A stretch of 64,000 nucleotides of DNA, taken from contig CALXMC010000001.1 in NCBI GenBank assembly GCA_944389385.1, positions 62,001 to 126,000 on the forward strand, written 5' to 3'. Positions 9,871-23,320 of this stretch are shown piece by piece. The stretch's first letter is position 1; every line of letters starts with the position of its first letter. The position numbers and the translations under genes are program-made. The stretch is from an uncultured Alphaproteobacteria bacterium. Lineage in GTDB: Bacteria; Pseudomonadota; Alphaproteobacteria; Rs-D84. Below the pieces are notes generated by a model. The model saw only the letters and a list, made by a program, of their open reading frames with translations, was not told the DNA's origin and did not search any database.

Positions 9871-9900
9871 AAAAACGTGCGTCCCGCGCACGTTTTTTTA
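9871..9900. terminator. Bidirectional terminator between dksA-like gene and module A
   Basis: A hairpin with arms AACGTGCG and CGCACGTT is flanked by an A-run and a T-run, so it can act on both strands: for trxA-dksA on plus and for module A on minus. Confidence 0.85.
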
Positions 9901-10623
9901 TTATTTGTTAATTAAAATATTTCCAATTGCACCGCCAACGACACCCGCGCCGCCAACAGAACCGCCGGTTTTTACTTTGTTTTCGCTTTCCACACTCTGC
10001 GCATTCCACTCAGCCGCGTCCGCACCATCGGGATTTGTTAATGCACGCGATACAGACGCATACGCACCATCAGTTACACCAATTGACACATTGTCGTATA
10101 AACCAGGCATCTCTTCTGGAATATTGGATTCTATCCCAGGCGAAAGCCCAAGTTGCTCTTTCCTTTGTTGCAAATCGATCGCCAACGCGATGTATTCGTT
10201 TCTTAGCGGCAATAATATATTTGCACCAGGTAATTGTACATTTGTTGTCCCACCCGCTATATTTCGTCCCGCACCATAATCACATTTGAAAGTCGCCAAA
10301 TATGCCGCCATGTCTTGTTCAGCCGCTGCATCGGCAGACATCTCGGCCAATCCAGACGCCAACATCATCCCACCAATACCGCCTGCACCAATTGCCGCCC
10401 CGCCCAACATACGATTCGCAAACGACTGCTCGTGCGATACAGTGGCATTGTATTCCTTTTCCAATATAGAAATTTTGTCGTATGTATAAATAATCATCAA
10501 AGAATCTGTTTTGCGGTACGCCGCCATGTACGGGTTATCGCCCAACCCCAGATCATCCACCCCCACAGCAAAGGCAGATTTTATAAAAAATCCAACAATA
10601 AACAGCGGCATCAAAGTTTTCAT
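9901..10623 (-). CDS. Module A conserved secreted protein with glycine-zipper segments
   Basis: A 240-aa protein of unknown function. It has a signal peptide (about 1-19, ending AFA) and a variable stretch to about residue 57. A region nearly identical to the protein at 21401-22120 follows. Two Gly/Ala-rich hydrophobic segments stand out: LGGAAIGAGGIGGMMLASGL (about 73-92) and VGGAGVVGGAIGNILI near the C-terminus. Between them is a conserved soluble part with one Cys (FKCDYG). Glycine zippers often pack against membranes or oligomerise, so an envelope role is possible but unproven. The start directly abuts the stop of the upstream gene. The last 545 bases match module B with about ten mismatches and no gaps. 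Confidence 0.85.
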   Translation of the reverse strand: MKTLMPLFIVGFFIKSAFAVGVDDLGLGDNPYMAAYRKTDSLMIIYTYDKISILEKEYNATVSHEQSFANRMLGGAAIGAGGIGGMMLASGLAEMSADAAAEQDMAAYLATFKCDYGAGRNIAGGTTNVQLPGANILLPLRNEYIALAIDLQQRKEQLGLSPGIESNIPEEMPGLYDNVSIGVTDGAYASVSRALTNPDGADAAEWNAQSVESENKVKTGGSVGGAGVVGGAIGNILINK

Positions 10624-11523
10624 TTACCGAAAAATCCCAGTTGTTTCAGTGTCCATTCCCCATACATCTAACCCCGGCAAAGTATTATCTGGATTGCCAT
10701 TTTCATACTGATTTATAAATTCTTTTCTTTCTCTCTTACTCATGCCGTTCAAAGCGTTATTCAGTCGCCTTGCACGATTCTCGTATTCTATCCACTCGAT
10801 TAAATTTCCGACGCTGTACGACATCCCCAAAGAAACCCCTCCCTGAAATTCTGTTCCTTGGCTATATTCATCTTTATTCAAATAAATATCATAAAAAGCA
10901 AAGGTATTATCGGCGGCATCGCCCTTGATAACAAAAATTTCATCGGATCGAATTACCAATGTATATTCTTCAAAATCCAACGCATATTCACATATTTCAA
11001 CTTCTCGGAATCCGTCTTTGGAATAACATTCCGTTGTATCGTATTTTCCCCTGTCCAACCAAAATTCACATATAAAGGCGTCGCCCGTACAATTTTCAGA
11101 AATATATTTATCCAACTCATCATCACTTAAAAAAACACGATTTATATTTTGTGACTCGATTGTTGTTATATAGCGTCCTGTGTTTTTACTTTTTAATTTC
11201 AAATCCGCAATTAAACGATTTTTGTACCAATCGAACGCTTGGGTTGCCAACCACGCCCGATACGCATAAAATTGCTCCATTTGCGACTTGGATTGCATTT
11301 GATTATATAAATCAGGATTCATCTGGCGCACAAATTCGGCAATTTCGTCAAATTCAGAATTTATAAGTTCCATCTGTAATTCTGCGGTGGCCTTGTACTC
11401 GTCCGTATTCAGATTTTGATTTGCCACATTACCGCCGGCCAAAAACGATGTTGTCGTTTCATCTGCCGCCAACGCCCCACACACAATAAATCCGGCACAA
11501 AACAAAGATATGCAAAATCTCAT
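10624..11523 (-). CDS. Module A variable secreted protein
   Basis: A 299-aa protein, family not recognised. I start it at 11523 (MRFCISLFCAGF) because a strong GGGGAAGGGG ribosome site precedes this ATG and a signal peptide follows (cleavage after ...CGALA). The mature part is rich in Asp, Glu, Tyr and Asn and has four Cys between about residues 145 and 180 that could form disulfides in the periplasm. The protein at 22113-23009 has almost the same length (298 aa) and position but little sequence identity beyond a short N-terminal pattern (LM.AYL/WLA.........FeyY). Expression is expected to depend on the upstream leader with its terminator. Confidence 0.8.
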   Translation of the reverse strand: MRFCISLFCAGFIVCGALAADETTTSFLAGGNVANQNLNTDEYKATAELQMELINSEFDEIAEFVRQMNPDLYNQMQSKSQMEQFYAYRAWLATQAFDWYKNRLIADLKLKSKNTGRYITTIESQNINRVFLSDDELDKYISENCTGDAFICEFWLDRGKYDTTECYSKDGFREVEICEYALDFEEYTLVIRSDEIFVIKGDAADNTFAFYDIYLNKDEYSQGTEFQGGVSLGMSYSVGNLIEWIEYENRARRLNNALNGMSKRERKEFINQYENGNPDNTLPGLDVWGMDTETTGIFR

Positions 11524-11544
11524 TCCCCTTCCCCAATCCATAAC

Positions 11545-11714
11545 AAAAAACCACCGAAAAATTCAGTGGTTGGAGGTTCGAAACTATAATCTGGTATAGT
11601 GGGCTTATTCTTGATACTCGCCCCCTCCAACCCAATTTGGTTGGAGTGTTTTTTATGTCACACAGACACCAGATTCAGGGGTTTCGAATCCCCAATATGG
11701 CAATACACCATATC
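11545..11714 (-). promoter_or_regulatory. Structured leader RNA A ending in an intrinsic terminator
   Basis: The predicted transcript (start near 11714) folds into these elements in order: a hairpin ATATGG/CCATAT (11695-11713) with loop TGTATTG; a GGGG/CCCC hairpin (11678-11693) whose loop contains TTCGAAAC; a strong stem CTCCAACC/GGTTGGAG (11625-11646); a stem ACTATA/TATAGT; the segment GTTTCGAA (11577-11584), complementary to the earlier loop; and CCTCCAACC (11568-11576), able to compete for the GGTTGGAGG arm. An intrinsic terminator follows (ACCACTGA/TCGGTGGT then a T-run, 11545-11570). The terminator lies just before the ribosome site of the 10624-11523 gene. Leader B has the same order with compensatory changes, so this looks like an attenuator or riboswitch-like element. 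I do not recognise the family. Confidence 0.72.
11658..11711 (-). CDS. Possible 17-codon leader peptide in leader A
   Basis: An ATG lies inside the first hairpin, 9 nt after the -10 box, and opens a frame MVYCHIGDSKPLNLVSV followed by TGA. The leader B equivalent reads MVYCHIGVSRPVT. The first seven codons are identical at the nucleotide level, so peptide and RNA conservation cannot be separated. Translation here would cross the segment that makes the long-range pairing. Real translation is unproven. Confidence 0.3.
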   Translation of the reverse strand: MVYCHIGDSKPLNLVSV

Positions 11715-11720
11715 ACATAC

Positions 11721-11749
11721 ATTTTAACACAACATTATATCCCGCGCAA
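11721..11749 (-). promoter_or_regulatory. Promoter of module A
   Basis: TTGCGC (-35, 11744-11749), a 17-bp spacer and TAAAAT (-10, 11721-11726). The module B promoter has TTGCAC, 17 bp, TAAAGT, and the DNA from -10 into the leader is almost identical between the two loci. Confidence 0.75.
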
Positions 11750-13143: not shown

Positions 13144-14877
13144 TTATGCAGGCATTTTAACCGCATCCACCATTTGCGCGACAAATTCATCGGCGGGAAT
13201 GGTTTCTTGCTTTTCCACACCCAAACGGCGCAGCGTCACAGATTTATTTTCCATTTCCTTTTCGCCTACTATCGCGATGATTGGCGTTTTTGCCAACGAC
13301 AATTCGCGGATTTTATAATTAACCTTTTCATCACGCAAATCAGCGCGTGCATACACACCCGCGTCGCGCAGACGGTCTGCGATTTCAACGGCATATTCGC
13401 GGAATTTTTCTGAAATCGGGGTCACAACCACGGGTTCAGGCGATAACCACAGCGGCAAATTCCCACCCGTTGATTCCAACAATATACCCATAAACCGTTC
13501 AATCGAACCCAACATAGCACGATGCAACATAATCGGACGATGCTTTTCGCCATCTTCGCCGATATACGACAAATCAAAGCGTTCCGGCAAATTCATATCC
13601 AATTGCACGGTGCCACATTGCCACGTACGCCCCAGCGCATCTTTCAGATAGTTATCGATTTTCGGCCCATAAAACGCGGCATCGCCCGGCTCGATTTCGT
13701 ATTCGATGCCATTTGCATCCAACGCGTGTTTTAATGCGCCTTCGGCCTTGTCCCAAATTTCATCCGAACCGATACGGAATTCAGAATCTTTACGCGTGGC
13801 CAATTTCATGGAAATATTGGTAAATCCGAATTTGGCATAAACATCCTTGATAAACCGCAGGATTTTTACAACCTCGTCCTCCAACTGTTCTTCGGTACAG
13901 AAAATATGCGCATCATCCTGGGTAAATTCGCGCACACGCATCAGACCGGACAGACCGCCTGCGGCCTCGTACCGATTAACTTTACCAAATTCGGCCAAAT
14001 ACATCGGTAAATCCTTGTACGATTTAATACCCTGGCCAAACACCAACATCCCACCCGGACATGACATAGGCTTTACACAGAATATTTTACCATCCTGGGT
14101 TTTTCCGGAATAATTGTGTTCGCCATATTTGGCCCAATGCCCACTGCGTTCCCACAGCGACCGGTCCATAACCGACGGCGTGGAAATTTCCAGGTAACCG
14201 GCGCGTTCCTGGCGATGACGGATATAGTCAATCAGTTTGCGATAAATTTTATATCCCTTGTCATGCCAAAACACCGCGCCCGGCGCATAATCTGGTTCAA
14301 AATGGAACAAATCCATTTCTTTGCCCAATTTGCGGTTATCACGCGCGGCGGCCTCGGCCTGCATTTTCAAAAATTCGTCCAATTCTTCCTTGGTTGCGAA
14401 CGCATCAACATAAATACGTTGCAGCATTTTATTTTTTGCGTCGCCCTTCCAATACGCGCCGGCAACAGTACGAATTTTGAACGCGTCACGCGGTAAATCT
14501 TTGGAACTTTCAACGTGCGGCCCACGACACAAATCCACAAAATCGCGGAAAGTATATATCGACAAATCCTCGCCCGCGGCATCATATTCGTTCAGCCATT
14601 CCATTTTATATGGCTGGGATGCGAATATTTCCTTGGCTTCGTCCAGTGATACATTACGCTGTTCAAACCGACCGTTTGATTTGATTAAATCGCGCATTTC
14701 ACGTTCGATTTTTTCAAAATCCTCTTCGGAAAAACGGTGTTCAGTATCAAAATCGTAATAAAAACCATTTTCGATGGCCGGGCCACCCGCGAACTTTACA
14801 TCTGGATATAATTTTTTCACCGCCGCCGCCATAACATGCGCCAGTGAATGTCGTACAGTTTCAATTGGATATGACAT
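13144..14877 (-). CDS. thrS: Threonyl-tRNA synthetase without TGS domain
   Basis: A class II synthetase (577 aa) that charges tRNA-Thr. It begins directly in the editing (second additional) domain, with HSLAHVMAAAVKKLYP as the zinc-like H..H motif, continues through the catalytic core (MSCPGGMLVF, RVREFTQDDAHIFC, CGTVQLDMNLPERF) and ends in the anticodon-binding domain (about 475-577). Usual bacterial ThrRS has about 640 residues; the roughly 60-residue N-terminal TGS domain is missing, and no upstream in-frame sequence could supply it. The ATG has an AAAGGAA ribosome site. The upstream region encodes a Thr-rich leader peptide, pointing to attenuation by charged tRNA-Thr. Confidence 0.96.
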   Translation of the reverse strand: MSYPIETVRHSLAHVMAAAVKKLYPDVKFAGGPAIENGFYYDFDTEHRFSEEDFEKIEREMRDLIKSNGRFEQRNVSLDEAKEIFASQPYKMEWLNEYDAAGEDLSIYTFRDFVDLCRGPHVESSKDLPRDAFKIRTVAGAYWKGDAKNKMLQRIYVDAFATKEELDEFLKMQAEAAARDNRKLGKEMDLFHFEPDYAPGAVFWHDKGYKIYRKLIDYIRHRQERAGYLEISTPSVMDRSLWERSGHWAKYGEHNYSGKTQDGKIFCVKPMSCPGGMLVFGQGIKSYKDLPMYLAEFGKVNRYEAAGGLSGLMRVREFTQDDAHIFCTEEQLEDEVVKILRFIKDVYAKFGFTNISMKLATRKDSEFRIGSDEIWDKAEGALKHALDANGIEYEIEPGDAAFYGPKIDNYLKDALGRTWQCGTVQLDMNLPERFDLSYIGEDGEKHRPIMLHRAMLGSIERFMGILLESTGGNLPLWLSPEPVVVTPISEKFREYAVEIADRLRDAGVYARADLRDEKVNYKIRELSLAKTPIIAIVGEKEMENKSVTLRRLGVEKQETIPADEFVAQMVDAVKMPA

Positions 14878-21389: not shown

Positions 21390-21400
21390 AATTACTGCAT

Positions 21401-22120
21401 TTATTTTATGTGGTTAATTAAAATATTTCCAATTGCACCGCCAACGACACCCGCGCCACCAACCACGCCGCCGGTTTTTACTTTGTTTTCGCTTTCCACA
21501 CTCTGCGCATTCCACTCGGCCGCGTCCGCACCATCGGGATTTGTTAATGCACGCGATACTGACGCATACGCACCATCAGTTACACCAATTGACACATTGT
21601 CGTATAAACCAGGCATCTCTTCTGGAATATTGGATTCTATCCCAGGCGAAAGCCCAAGTTGCTCTTTCCTTTGTTGCAAATCGATCGCCAACGCGATGTA
21701 TTCGTTTCTTAGCGGCAATAATATATTTGCACCAGGTAATTGTACATTTGTTGTCCCACCCGCTATATTTCGTCCCGCACCATAATCACATTTGAAAGTC
21801 GCCAAATATGCCGCCATGTCTTGTTCAGCCGCTGCATCGGCAGACATCTCGGCCAATCCAGACGCCAACATCATCCCACCAATACCGCCTGCACCAATTG
21901 CCGCCGCCCCCAACATACGATTCGCGAACGACTGCTCGTGCGATACAGTGGCATTGTACCGTTCTTCCAACACAGATATTTCATCATACATAACCAATAT
22001 TTCCAGATTTTCTGTATTCTTATACATATCTTCATACGGATTATCCCTGACCGGCGCAAACGCAGATGCGTTACGCGCCAATAAAAGCATTGGTAAAAGA
22101 ATAATAATAAACTTATTCAT
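21401..22120 (-). CDS. Module B conserved secreted protein with glycine-zipper segments
   Basis: A 239-aa relative of the 9901-10623 protein. The first roughly 57 residues (signal peptide MNKFIIILLPMLLLARNASA, then a divergent part) differ, while everything after YNATVSHEQSF is nearly identical, including both Gly/Ala-rich segments and the single FKCDYG Cys. At the DNA level 21414-21958 matches 9908-10452 without gaps. The start overlaps the upstream stop by 8 bp, so it is coupled to the variable gene. Function unknown; the shared half must be important or freshly copied. Confidence 0.85.
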   Translation of the reverse strand: MNKFIIILLPMLLLARNASAFAPVRDNPYEDMYKNTENLEILVMYDEISVLEERYNATVSHEQSFANRMLGAAAIGAGGIGGMMLASGLAEMSADAAAEQDMAAYLATFKCDYGAGRNIAGGTTNVQLPGANILLPLRNEYIALAIDLQQRKEQLGLSPGIESNIPEEMPGLYDNVSIGVTDGAYASVSRALTNPDGADAAEWNAQSVESENKVKTGGVVGGAGVVGGAIGNILINHIK

Positions 22121-23035: not shown

Positions 23036-23218
23036 AAAAAACCACCGAAAAATTCAGTGGTTGGAGGTTCAAGACTAAAACATAGTATTAGTGTGTTTAT
23101 TTTGCGCGAACGCATTATTCACAACCCTCCAACCCATTTCGGCTGGAGAGATTTTTCATCGCATAACGCGACGCTATGTTACGGGTCTTGACACCCCAAT
23201 ATGGCAATACACCATATC
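23036..23218 (-). promoter_or_regulatory. Structured leader RNA B ending in an intrinsic terminator
   Basis: This is the second copy of the leader described at 11545-11714, in the 338-bp gap before the YbeY-Lnt gene. Elements: ATATGG/CCATAT hairpin (23199-23217, identical loop); a GGGT/ACCC hairpin whose loop holds TCAAGAC (23185-23191); a variable hairpin CATA...TATG; the stem CTCCAGCC/GGTTGGAG (23127-23148, one G-U); a UUCG-capped TGCG/CGCA hairpin; a stem ACTAA/TTAGT; GTCTTGA (23069-23075), pairing with TCAAGAC; CCTCCAACC (23059-23067); and terminator arms ACCACTGA/TCGGTGGT with a T-run (23036-23061). Relative to leader A, the long-range pairing keeps complementarity although both strands changed. 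Confidence 0.72.
23174..23215 (-). CDS. Possible 13-codon leader peptide in leader B
   Basis: ATG inside the first hairpin, 9 nt after the -10 box, reading MVYCHIGVSRPVT then TAG. It parallels the frame in leader A (first seven residues identical). Translation is a guess. Confidence 0.3.
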   Translation of the reverse strand: MVYCHIGVSRPVT

Positions 23219-23224
23219 ACATAC

Positions 23225-23253
23225 ACTTTAACACAACATTGCGTCCTGTGCAA
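23225..23253 (-). promoter_or_regulatory. Promoter of module B
   Basis: TTGCAC (-35, 23248-23253), 17-bp spacer, TAAAGT (-10, 23225-23230), with the same geometry as the module A promoter. Confidence 0.75.
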
Positions 23254-23320
23254 GGACACCTCTGTTTTGTTTTCGTTTTTCTGTGCATCCACGCAAAATA
23301 TTGAAAAAAATATGAAATAT

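Follow-up and report, generated by a model that had tools for sequence, protein, structure and literature searches.

A predicted attenuator-type RNA leader family related to sRNA-Xcc1 in uncultured gut Alphaproteobacteria

1. Introduction

A 5' leader of about 190 nt from an uncultured alphaproteobacterium, here termed leader A, belongs, on comparative sequence evidence, to a large family of folding RNA leaders that had not been recognised before. It lies in a window of 64,000 nucleotides, the whole stretch of DNA that was analysed. Leader A is likely to be a cis-acting transcription attenuator and a diverged, type II branch of the sRNA-Xcc1 superfamily. Covariation shows its predicted fold: six stems or hairpins (P1–P6), two long-range helices (L1 and L2) that join a 5' domain to a 3' domain, and a three-way choice of partners at P4. 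The family probably switches genes for secreted proteins and regulators in gut bacteria.

2. Architecture of leaders A and B

The original prediction described a promoter, a 5' hairpin, a strong stem and a terminator placed before the ribosome site. All are present on the minus strand, and the same order recurs in a second copy, leader B. The -35-like box, the additional TATAAT, P3 and the Shine-Dalgarno sequence listed below are read directly from the nucleotides; the other assignments carry the support given with them.

Leader A
About 11749 to 11545, minus strand: leader A, 5' leader of about 190 nt
11744-11749, minus: -35-like TTGCGC, 17-nt spacer to the -10
11734-11739, minus: additional TATAAT near the -10
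11721-11726, minus: -10-like TAAAAT, 6 nt upstream of P1
11694-11714, minus: P1 hairpin GATATGG..CCATATT at the RNA 5' end; identical in leader B, variable in relatives
11678-11693, minus: P2 hairpin GGGG..CCCC with L1a in its loop; covaries, 87.8% of cells paired
11681-11688, minus: L1a, TTCGAAAC, in the P2 loop, partner of L1b; cognate versus non-cognate tests
11669-11675, minus: L2a, AATCTGG, partner of L2b in the P6 loop; covariation and cognate tests
11656-11668, minus: P3 hairpin TGTC..GACA, with an A-rich linker after it; analogous hairpins in relatives
11625-11646, minus: P4 stem, P4a:P4b; 97.3% of cells paired, three-way covariation with P4'
11639-11646, minus: P4a, CTCCAACC, pairs with P4b
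11625-11632, minus: P4b, GGTTGGAG, pairs with P4a
11601-11623, minus: P5, short stem GGGC/GCCC with conserved loop GAGTA..GAATAA; covarying, with G-U pairs
11584-11599, minus: P6 hairpin CTAT/ATAG with L2b in its loop; 94.8% of cells paired, also in RF02221
11588-11594, minus: L2b, CCAGATT, in the P6 loop, partner of L2a
11577-11584, minus: L1b, GTTTCGAA, partner of L1a (8 bp); covariation and cognate tests
11568-11576, minus: P4', CCTCCAACC, antiterminator strand, able to pair with P4b in place of P4a
11545-11571, minus: intrinsic terminator AACCACTGAATTTTTCGGTGGTTTTTT; its 5' arm shares the last 4 nt of P4' (AACC)
11525-11534, minus: Shine-Dalgarno sequence GGGGAAGGGG of the first gene

Leader B
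23036-23265, minus: leader B, same element order as leader A, 96.6 bits
23198-23218, minus: P1
23183-23197, minus: P2
23174-23180, minus: L2a
23127-23148, minus: P4
23092-23124, minus: P5
23075-23091, minus: P6
23069-23075, minus: L1b
23059-23067, minus: P4'
23036-23062, minus: terminator

The promoter layout of leader B (TTGCAC-17-TAAAGT) follows that of leader A, and its loop pairing, TCAAGAC/GTCTTGA, is compensatory with respect to leader A. The start of the first gene is best put at the ATG at 11521-11523, downstream of GGGGAAGGGG. G-U pairs in P4 and P5, read on the minus strand, point to this strand as the one present as RNA. On the plus strand, the P4 hairpin followed by GTTTTTT (11615-11660) resembles a terminator for transcripts of the opposite strand, and copy B has a similar T-rich run. 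The internal loop of P5 is conserved and common to the leader copies and sRNA-Xcc1.

Three pairings define the predicted switch. The GGTTGGAGG arm has two partners, upstream CTCCAACC or downstream CCTCCAACC. This two-fold switch had been proposed at the outset, together with the pairing of the loop TTCGAAAC to downstream GTTTCGAA, which comprises 8 bp in leader A; both are borne out by covariation in more than 100 copies. The overlap of the second arm with the terminator, put at three bases, is actually 4 nt (AACC). A second long-range pairing, between L2a (AATCTGG) and L2b (CCAGATT), was absent from that proposal.

The computed fold of leader A reaches -67.1 kcal/mol, compared with -46.3 +/- 3.99 for dinucleotide shuffles (z -5.2; 0/200 as good). 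In the fold favoured by RNAfold, P2 and P6 are open, and L1 and L2 form nested helices instead. L1 and L2 are mutually nested and clash only with these two hairpins, so that either loop pseudoknots or refolding would be possible. Because of the same clash, free folding was kept out of the evidence.

3. Covariation of the pairings

The fold is carried by comparison between copies. In 29 distinct aligned copies, 86.6% of cells are paired, versus 74.3% after shuffling. Changes on both sides of a pair occur in 22 pairs and 127 cells, compared with 40 cells in shuffled alignments, and exceed every shuffle. With the partner shifted by one column, the score for covariation is about 0.11 in place of 0.387. 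For L1, 98.3% of cells are paired and five of the six pairs show both-side changes in the same 29 copies.

An alignment-free test gives the same pairings. It asks for two ordered, exact 6-mer complementarities between the 5' and the 3' part, and its counts depend on the exact-match rules. The L1 and L2 double match is found in 104/124 cognate type II combinations versus 2.5% of non-cognate ones; with other limits the values are 101/118 and 5.8%. Both long-range helices covary copy by copy.

P4b pairs with P4' at 8/8 positions in 111/124 copies, with 25 distinct 3' strands, versus 1013/7112 non-cognate combinations. Whole helices are replaced, with P4a, P4b and P4' changing jointly, as in CTCCTGACC/GGTCAGGAGG/CCTCCTGACC and GGCAGGAAG/CTTCCTGCC. 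Most P4' variants belong to a small number of classes, and the raw counts therefore overstate the number of independent events; likewise, the related copies counted here are not independent events. The cognate tests are free of shuffles, and the shuffles used for the terminator, promoter-box and internal-hairpin counts given below preserve base composition only.

4. Terminator, promoter and proposed switch

A hairpin with a U-run stands at P4' in 105/113 type II copies, and its 5' arm overlaps P4' in 100 of them (shuffled 6.8). A TATAAT-like box upstream of P2 occurs in 103/113 copies versus 54 after shuffling, a weak signal in AT-rich sequence. In L032, from a sister family, the terminator is replaced by a Shine-Dalgarno sequence, TTGGAGG, complementary to CCTCCAA. 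The anatomy, as anatomy, is that of a transcription attenuator: a mutually exclusive antiterminator and terminator precede the gene.

The proposed mechanism is as follows. (i) When P4b pairs with P4a, P4' would be left free, the terminator would form and the gene would be off. (ii) When P4b pairs with P4', the 5' arm of the terminator would be captured, and RNA polymerase would read through into the gene, which would be on. The assignment of on and off to these two states is itself inferred. (iii) L1 and L2 would hold the two halves together, as a framework that sets the balance at P4. Only one base separates L1b from P4', which could allow L1 and P4' to stack. As the trigger, competition by another RNA, or folding kinetics set by how fast transcription runs, seems somewhat more probable than a metabolite. 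The arrangement in phages described in §7 points to a competing RNA, as do tandem neighbours that share both L1 and L2 codes. A tRNA or a small ligand, both suggested originally as drivers, might act here. Translation of a short peptide, another driver suggested originally, finds no support: a start codon follows GGAGG in only 37/88 leaders, and open reading frame lengths are scattered. The leader-peptide identity was rejected on the same counts.

5. Spread of the family

Further copies with compensatory changes in related genomes had been named as a check, and a covariance-model scan found them. The model, R1, was built from 29 type II copies, and its E-values are rough. It matches 144/156 genomes of the genus, 179/201 genomes of the order and 20/23 genera. 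The genus, according to named records, comprises Candidatus Enterousia and related metagenome-assembled genomes from termite, ruminant and chicken gut; the order is Rs-D84 (PMC12306168). Single genomes of about 1 Mb hold 25, 26, 40 and 50 copies (R1, deeper scoring), which makes for a regulon of structured leaders in uncultured gut bacteria that is very dense for genomes so small.

BLAST finds a third copy in the genome of the window, and copies in most relatives. With deeper scoring the covariance model gives at least six leader copies in this genome; one additional hit is leader A read on its reverse strand. Outside the window, the same genome (G000) carries an sRNA-Xcc1-like subset at C1:44581-44670, 202772-202862 and 231236-231324 (L304). 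The L304 copy, with L1/L2 complementarity of its own, stands before an adhesin-like protein that is predicted to be exported.

Beyond the order, 15 more genomes in other alphaproteobacterial families match, and the full architecture can be read from the DNA in most of them; weak matches at L296, and perhaps at L295 and L298, are unconvincing. A viral origin was considered for the IMG/VR copies L279-L281 and rejected. L279 and L281 precede a secreted-protein gene like that of the window and are therefore probably host fragments.

Tandem copies are frequent, with up to four in succession. Both L1 and L2 are shared in 7/20 tandem pairs, versus 1% of non-tandem pairs that resemble each other more closely in the rest of the sequence, although this sharing could reflect local or recent duplication. 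Individual copies vary in form. In L012 (1521-1649) the L1/L2 sequences of the 5' half mismatch those of the 3' half, which is close to that of L008, and the copy appears recombinant-like. In L018 (1527-1739) the P3 region, from L2a to P4, holds about 70-100 extra nucleotides, and L1 and L2 are still complementary.

Multiple copies, tandem arrays, the possible hybrid L012 and the link of sRNA-Xcc1 to integron cassettes (PMC12444791) might together suggest an element that acts as DNA, such as a recombination or attachment site folded in the manner of attC. This is very improbable. G-U pairs are found on one strand only, the element is preceded by a promoter-like box and followed by a terminator or ribosome site, and the orientation to the gene is constant.

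6. Kinship with sRNA-Xcc1

The 3' half of the type II leader is, by alignment of sequence and structure, a diverged form of sRNA-Xcc1 (RF02221). Leader A itself has no match to RF02221 up to E 10, so that the kinship stands on its sister copies. Against a curated threshold of 53 bits, sister type II leaders score 33-42 bits, below threshold, and other copies from the genus 39-58 bits, with one at 57.8. The far relative L293 reaches 66.2 bits, and its match covers exactly the 3' half. In the reverse search, R1, which contains type II copies only, matches phage and gammaproteobacterial copies at E 3.4e-5 to 2.6e-4. A position-by-position alignment places the type II copies on the RF02221 consensus structure. 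The original remark that no RNA family has this order of elements thus survives for leader A, which is without an Rfam match, but not for the family, since sister copies and far relatives tie its 3' half to RF02221.

The 87-nt RF02221 consensus corresponds to the type II 3' half, with P4b:P4' as outer helix, P5 with its AAUA..GAAUAA loop, and P6. It continues as type II does, with the single strand L1b and then the start of the downstream hairpin. Matches to RF02221 occur in 58/398 sampled Pseudomonadota genomes, 39 of them above threshold, and in 0/14 control genomes.

In Xanthomonas, sRNA-Xcc1 has been mapped as a stable 88-nt RNA (PMC2996969), and several copies lie in tandem in Xylella (PMC12189769). 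These observations would suit a family of stand-alone small RNA genes, in which the terminator would mark the 3' end of the RNA and the next gene would have no connection with it. Such a reading appears quite improbable for type II leaders: an open reading frame on the same strand begins within 110 nt at 87 leaders, few kinds of gene are found downstream, the pairing of P4' with the terminator arm is kept through sequence changes, and in phages the ribosome-site copies described next tie the RNA to the following gene. Cis-acting attenuation remains the preferred reading.

7. Arrangement in phages and Gammaproteobacteria

On phages and plasmids, a gap of about 20-45 nt separates the end of the element from a downstream gene of the ant, KilA-N, BRO or a similar kind. 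The first genes of 31 phage or gammaproteobacterial copies encode Bro-N (8), P22_AR_N, Phage_pRha, KilA-N and SymE (2 each), and AntA and ORF6N (1 each). DNA like that of Rac-SA53 occurs in 158/5,426 complete Escherichia coli genomes, and antA/AntB is annotated at two among the matches listed. Among the papers searched, none joins sRNA-Xcc1 with antirepressors.

Upstream of the annotated sRNA-Xcc1 lies a 5' domain made of P2 with L1a, then L2a, usually followed by a U-run hairpin. This 5' domain is undescribed in Rfam and in the literature examined. The L1 and L2 complementarity holds for 32/36 cognate phage and gammaproteobacterial copies, versus 81/1260 non-cognate combinations. The U-run hairpin between the domains is present in 25/36 copies (shuffled 0). 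Its loop is often CCCG[T/A][C/T]AG, a motif found in 21/36 copies under a strict definition. In contrast to type II, a terminator overlapping P4' is found in 1/36 of these copies (type II, 100/113).

A second copy of L1a and L2a stands at the ribosome site in 22/36 phage and gammaproteobacterial copies, versus 36/1260 non-cognate combinations (2.9%); TGCAAAGGAGACACAAG in L332 is an example. The ribosome site thus repeats the sequence of L1a and L2a, so that the phage 3' domain has two possible partners, the ribosome site and the 5' domain. In type II such a copy is seen in 9/124, which equals chance (non-cognate 6.2%). The ancestral device may have been a phage antirepressor leader, of which the gut bacteria would have lost the ribosome-site copy and gained a terminator; evolution in the direction from phage to host would be plausible. 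At L324, a match to c4-2 RNA (2890-2958; 34.8 of 41 bits, sub-threshold) lies about 1 kb from an antirepressor leader of sRNA-Xcc1 type.

This arrangement bears on whether the leader is flipped in trans. A base-pairing RNA, namely a 5' or 3' domain supplied by a different copy or by an infecting phage, may act through L1/L2 and give copy-specific control. The U-run hairpin found between the domains in 25/36 phage and gammaproteobacterial copies could release a short 5'-domain RNA, and both L1 and L2 are common to tandem pairs far above the non-tandem rate (7/20 versus 1%). The Gifsy-1 IsrK/orf45 system operates in this way experimentally, with a short RNA that activates an otherwise inactive read-through mRNA (PMC4825925). 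An internal terminator is present, however, in only 15/113 type II leaders, the L1/L2 sequences differ among most copies of one genome, and duplication may explain the tandem sharing. Control in trans is consequently a real possibility that falls short of being likely.

8. Downstream genes

Leader A is followed by two genes, both without Pfam match.

10624-11523, minus: first gene, predicted secreted protein
9901-10623, minus: second gene, predicted secreted protein

A same-strand open reading frame starts at most 110 nt downstream in 87 of the leaders examined. The first gene has a signal-peptide-like start in 50/87 cases (mean 184 amino acids, 13 cysteines), as called by a crude hydrophobicity rule in place of a signal-peptide program. 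Pfam searches of 76 downstream proteins, the window pair included, give HTH_31 in 14, HTH_3 in 11 and HTH_19 in 6, families that overlap, and a few matches to outer-membrane barrel families. Prepilin-like genes, recognised by eye from GRSMIEMLG motifs, follow some of the far copies, and some leader copies lack a clear downstream gene. For the first downstream protein, a search among viruses gave no relatives.

Two further features of the window concern neighbouring genes. The second genes of both pairs are 96% identical over 300 nt (9894-10193 versus 21400-21699). The first genes of the two pairs differ, and the pattern points to duplication or gene conversion in the recent past. The threonyl-tRNA synthetase gene (13144-14877) encodes 577 amino acids and starts near the editing domain; the protein may therefore be without the usual N-terminal TGS domain.

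The nature of the downstream genes also weighs on an orphan riboswitch, in which a small molecule, bound perhaps at the P5 loop GAAUA..GAAUAA, would set the choice between P4 and P4' for a regulon of surface proteins and regulators. Unpaired P5 residues are conserved across alphaproteobacterial, gammaproteobacterial and phage copies, and the expression platform is a terminator or, in L032, possibly a Shine-Dalgarno sequence. In copy number, with tens in one genome, the family is like the riboswitch regulons that respond to second messengers. Yet the downstream genes share no metabolic function, the phage copies are accounted for by competition between RNAs, and no known Rfam riboswitch family matches. 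A ligand-driven switch is rather doubtful.

A wider picture can be drawn for the attenuator family. Tens of separately addressed switches, derived from a phage antirepressor RNA, might form a genome-wide set with private L1/L2 codes and cross-talk between tandem copies, in which free domains, including those of invading phages, choose the surface proteins and regulators expressed; at present this is unlikely. The more than 100 largely distinct RNA-RNA pairings constitute a natural set. For sRNA-Xcc1, long listed as a trans-acting small RNA, a full-length architecture is gained and a testable role as the hinge of a phage antirepressor leader switch.

9. Comparison with known systems

Rfam at curated thresholds gives no match in the window. 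Permissive matches in type II loci are due to chance, save for RF02221 and ordinary tRNAs. A tmRNA- or tRNA-like T arm, suggested by the look of GGGG-TTCGAA-CCCC, was ruled out, because the loop covaries with L1b.

Terminating riboswitches and T-box leaders offer a similar general anatomy, with a choice in the 5' leader between anti-antiterminator, antiterminator and terminator, as in type II. The type II leader differs in having no Rfam match and in preceding no metabolic or aminoacylation genes. In C4 antisense RNA of phages P1 and P7, an upstream RNA has two-part complementarity with an antirepressor leader. The C4 fold differs from that of the type II leader, and the Rfam C4 models have no match over the leader elements.

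In Rfam and the literature examined, sRNA-Xcc1 is treated as a free, trans-acting small RNA, and the 5' domain, L1/L2, P4a and the downstream platform are omitted. The leader of the window is distinguished by predicted terminator control of secreted-protein or helix-turn-helix genes, whereas sRNA-Xcc1 precedes antirepressor or SymE genes.

The isrK model has no match in ten phage or gammaproteobacterial loci at E 0.5, and the scanned type II loci likewise gave none. There are two departures of type II from IsrK: the internal terminator is seen in 15/113 type II leaders versus 25/36 phage and gammaproteobacterial copies, and pairing of the regulatory domain with the ribosome site could be drawn in 9/124. 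IsrK/orf45-anrP of the Salmonella prophage Gifsy-1 is itself an antirepressor leader with two products, a short RNA that ends at a terminator and an mRNA made by read-through, whose translation is governed by alternative pairing with the short RNA (PMC4825925). It is the nearest working precedent for the phage arrangement.
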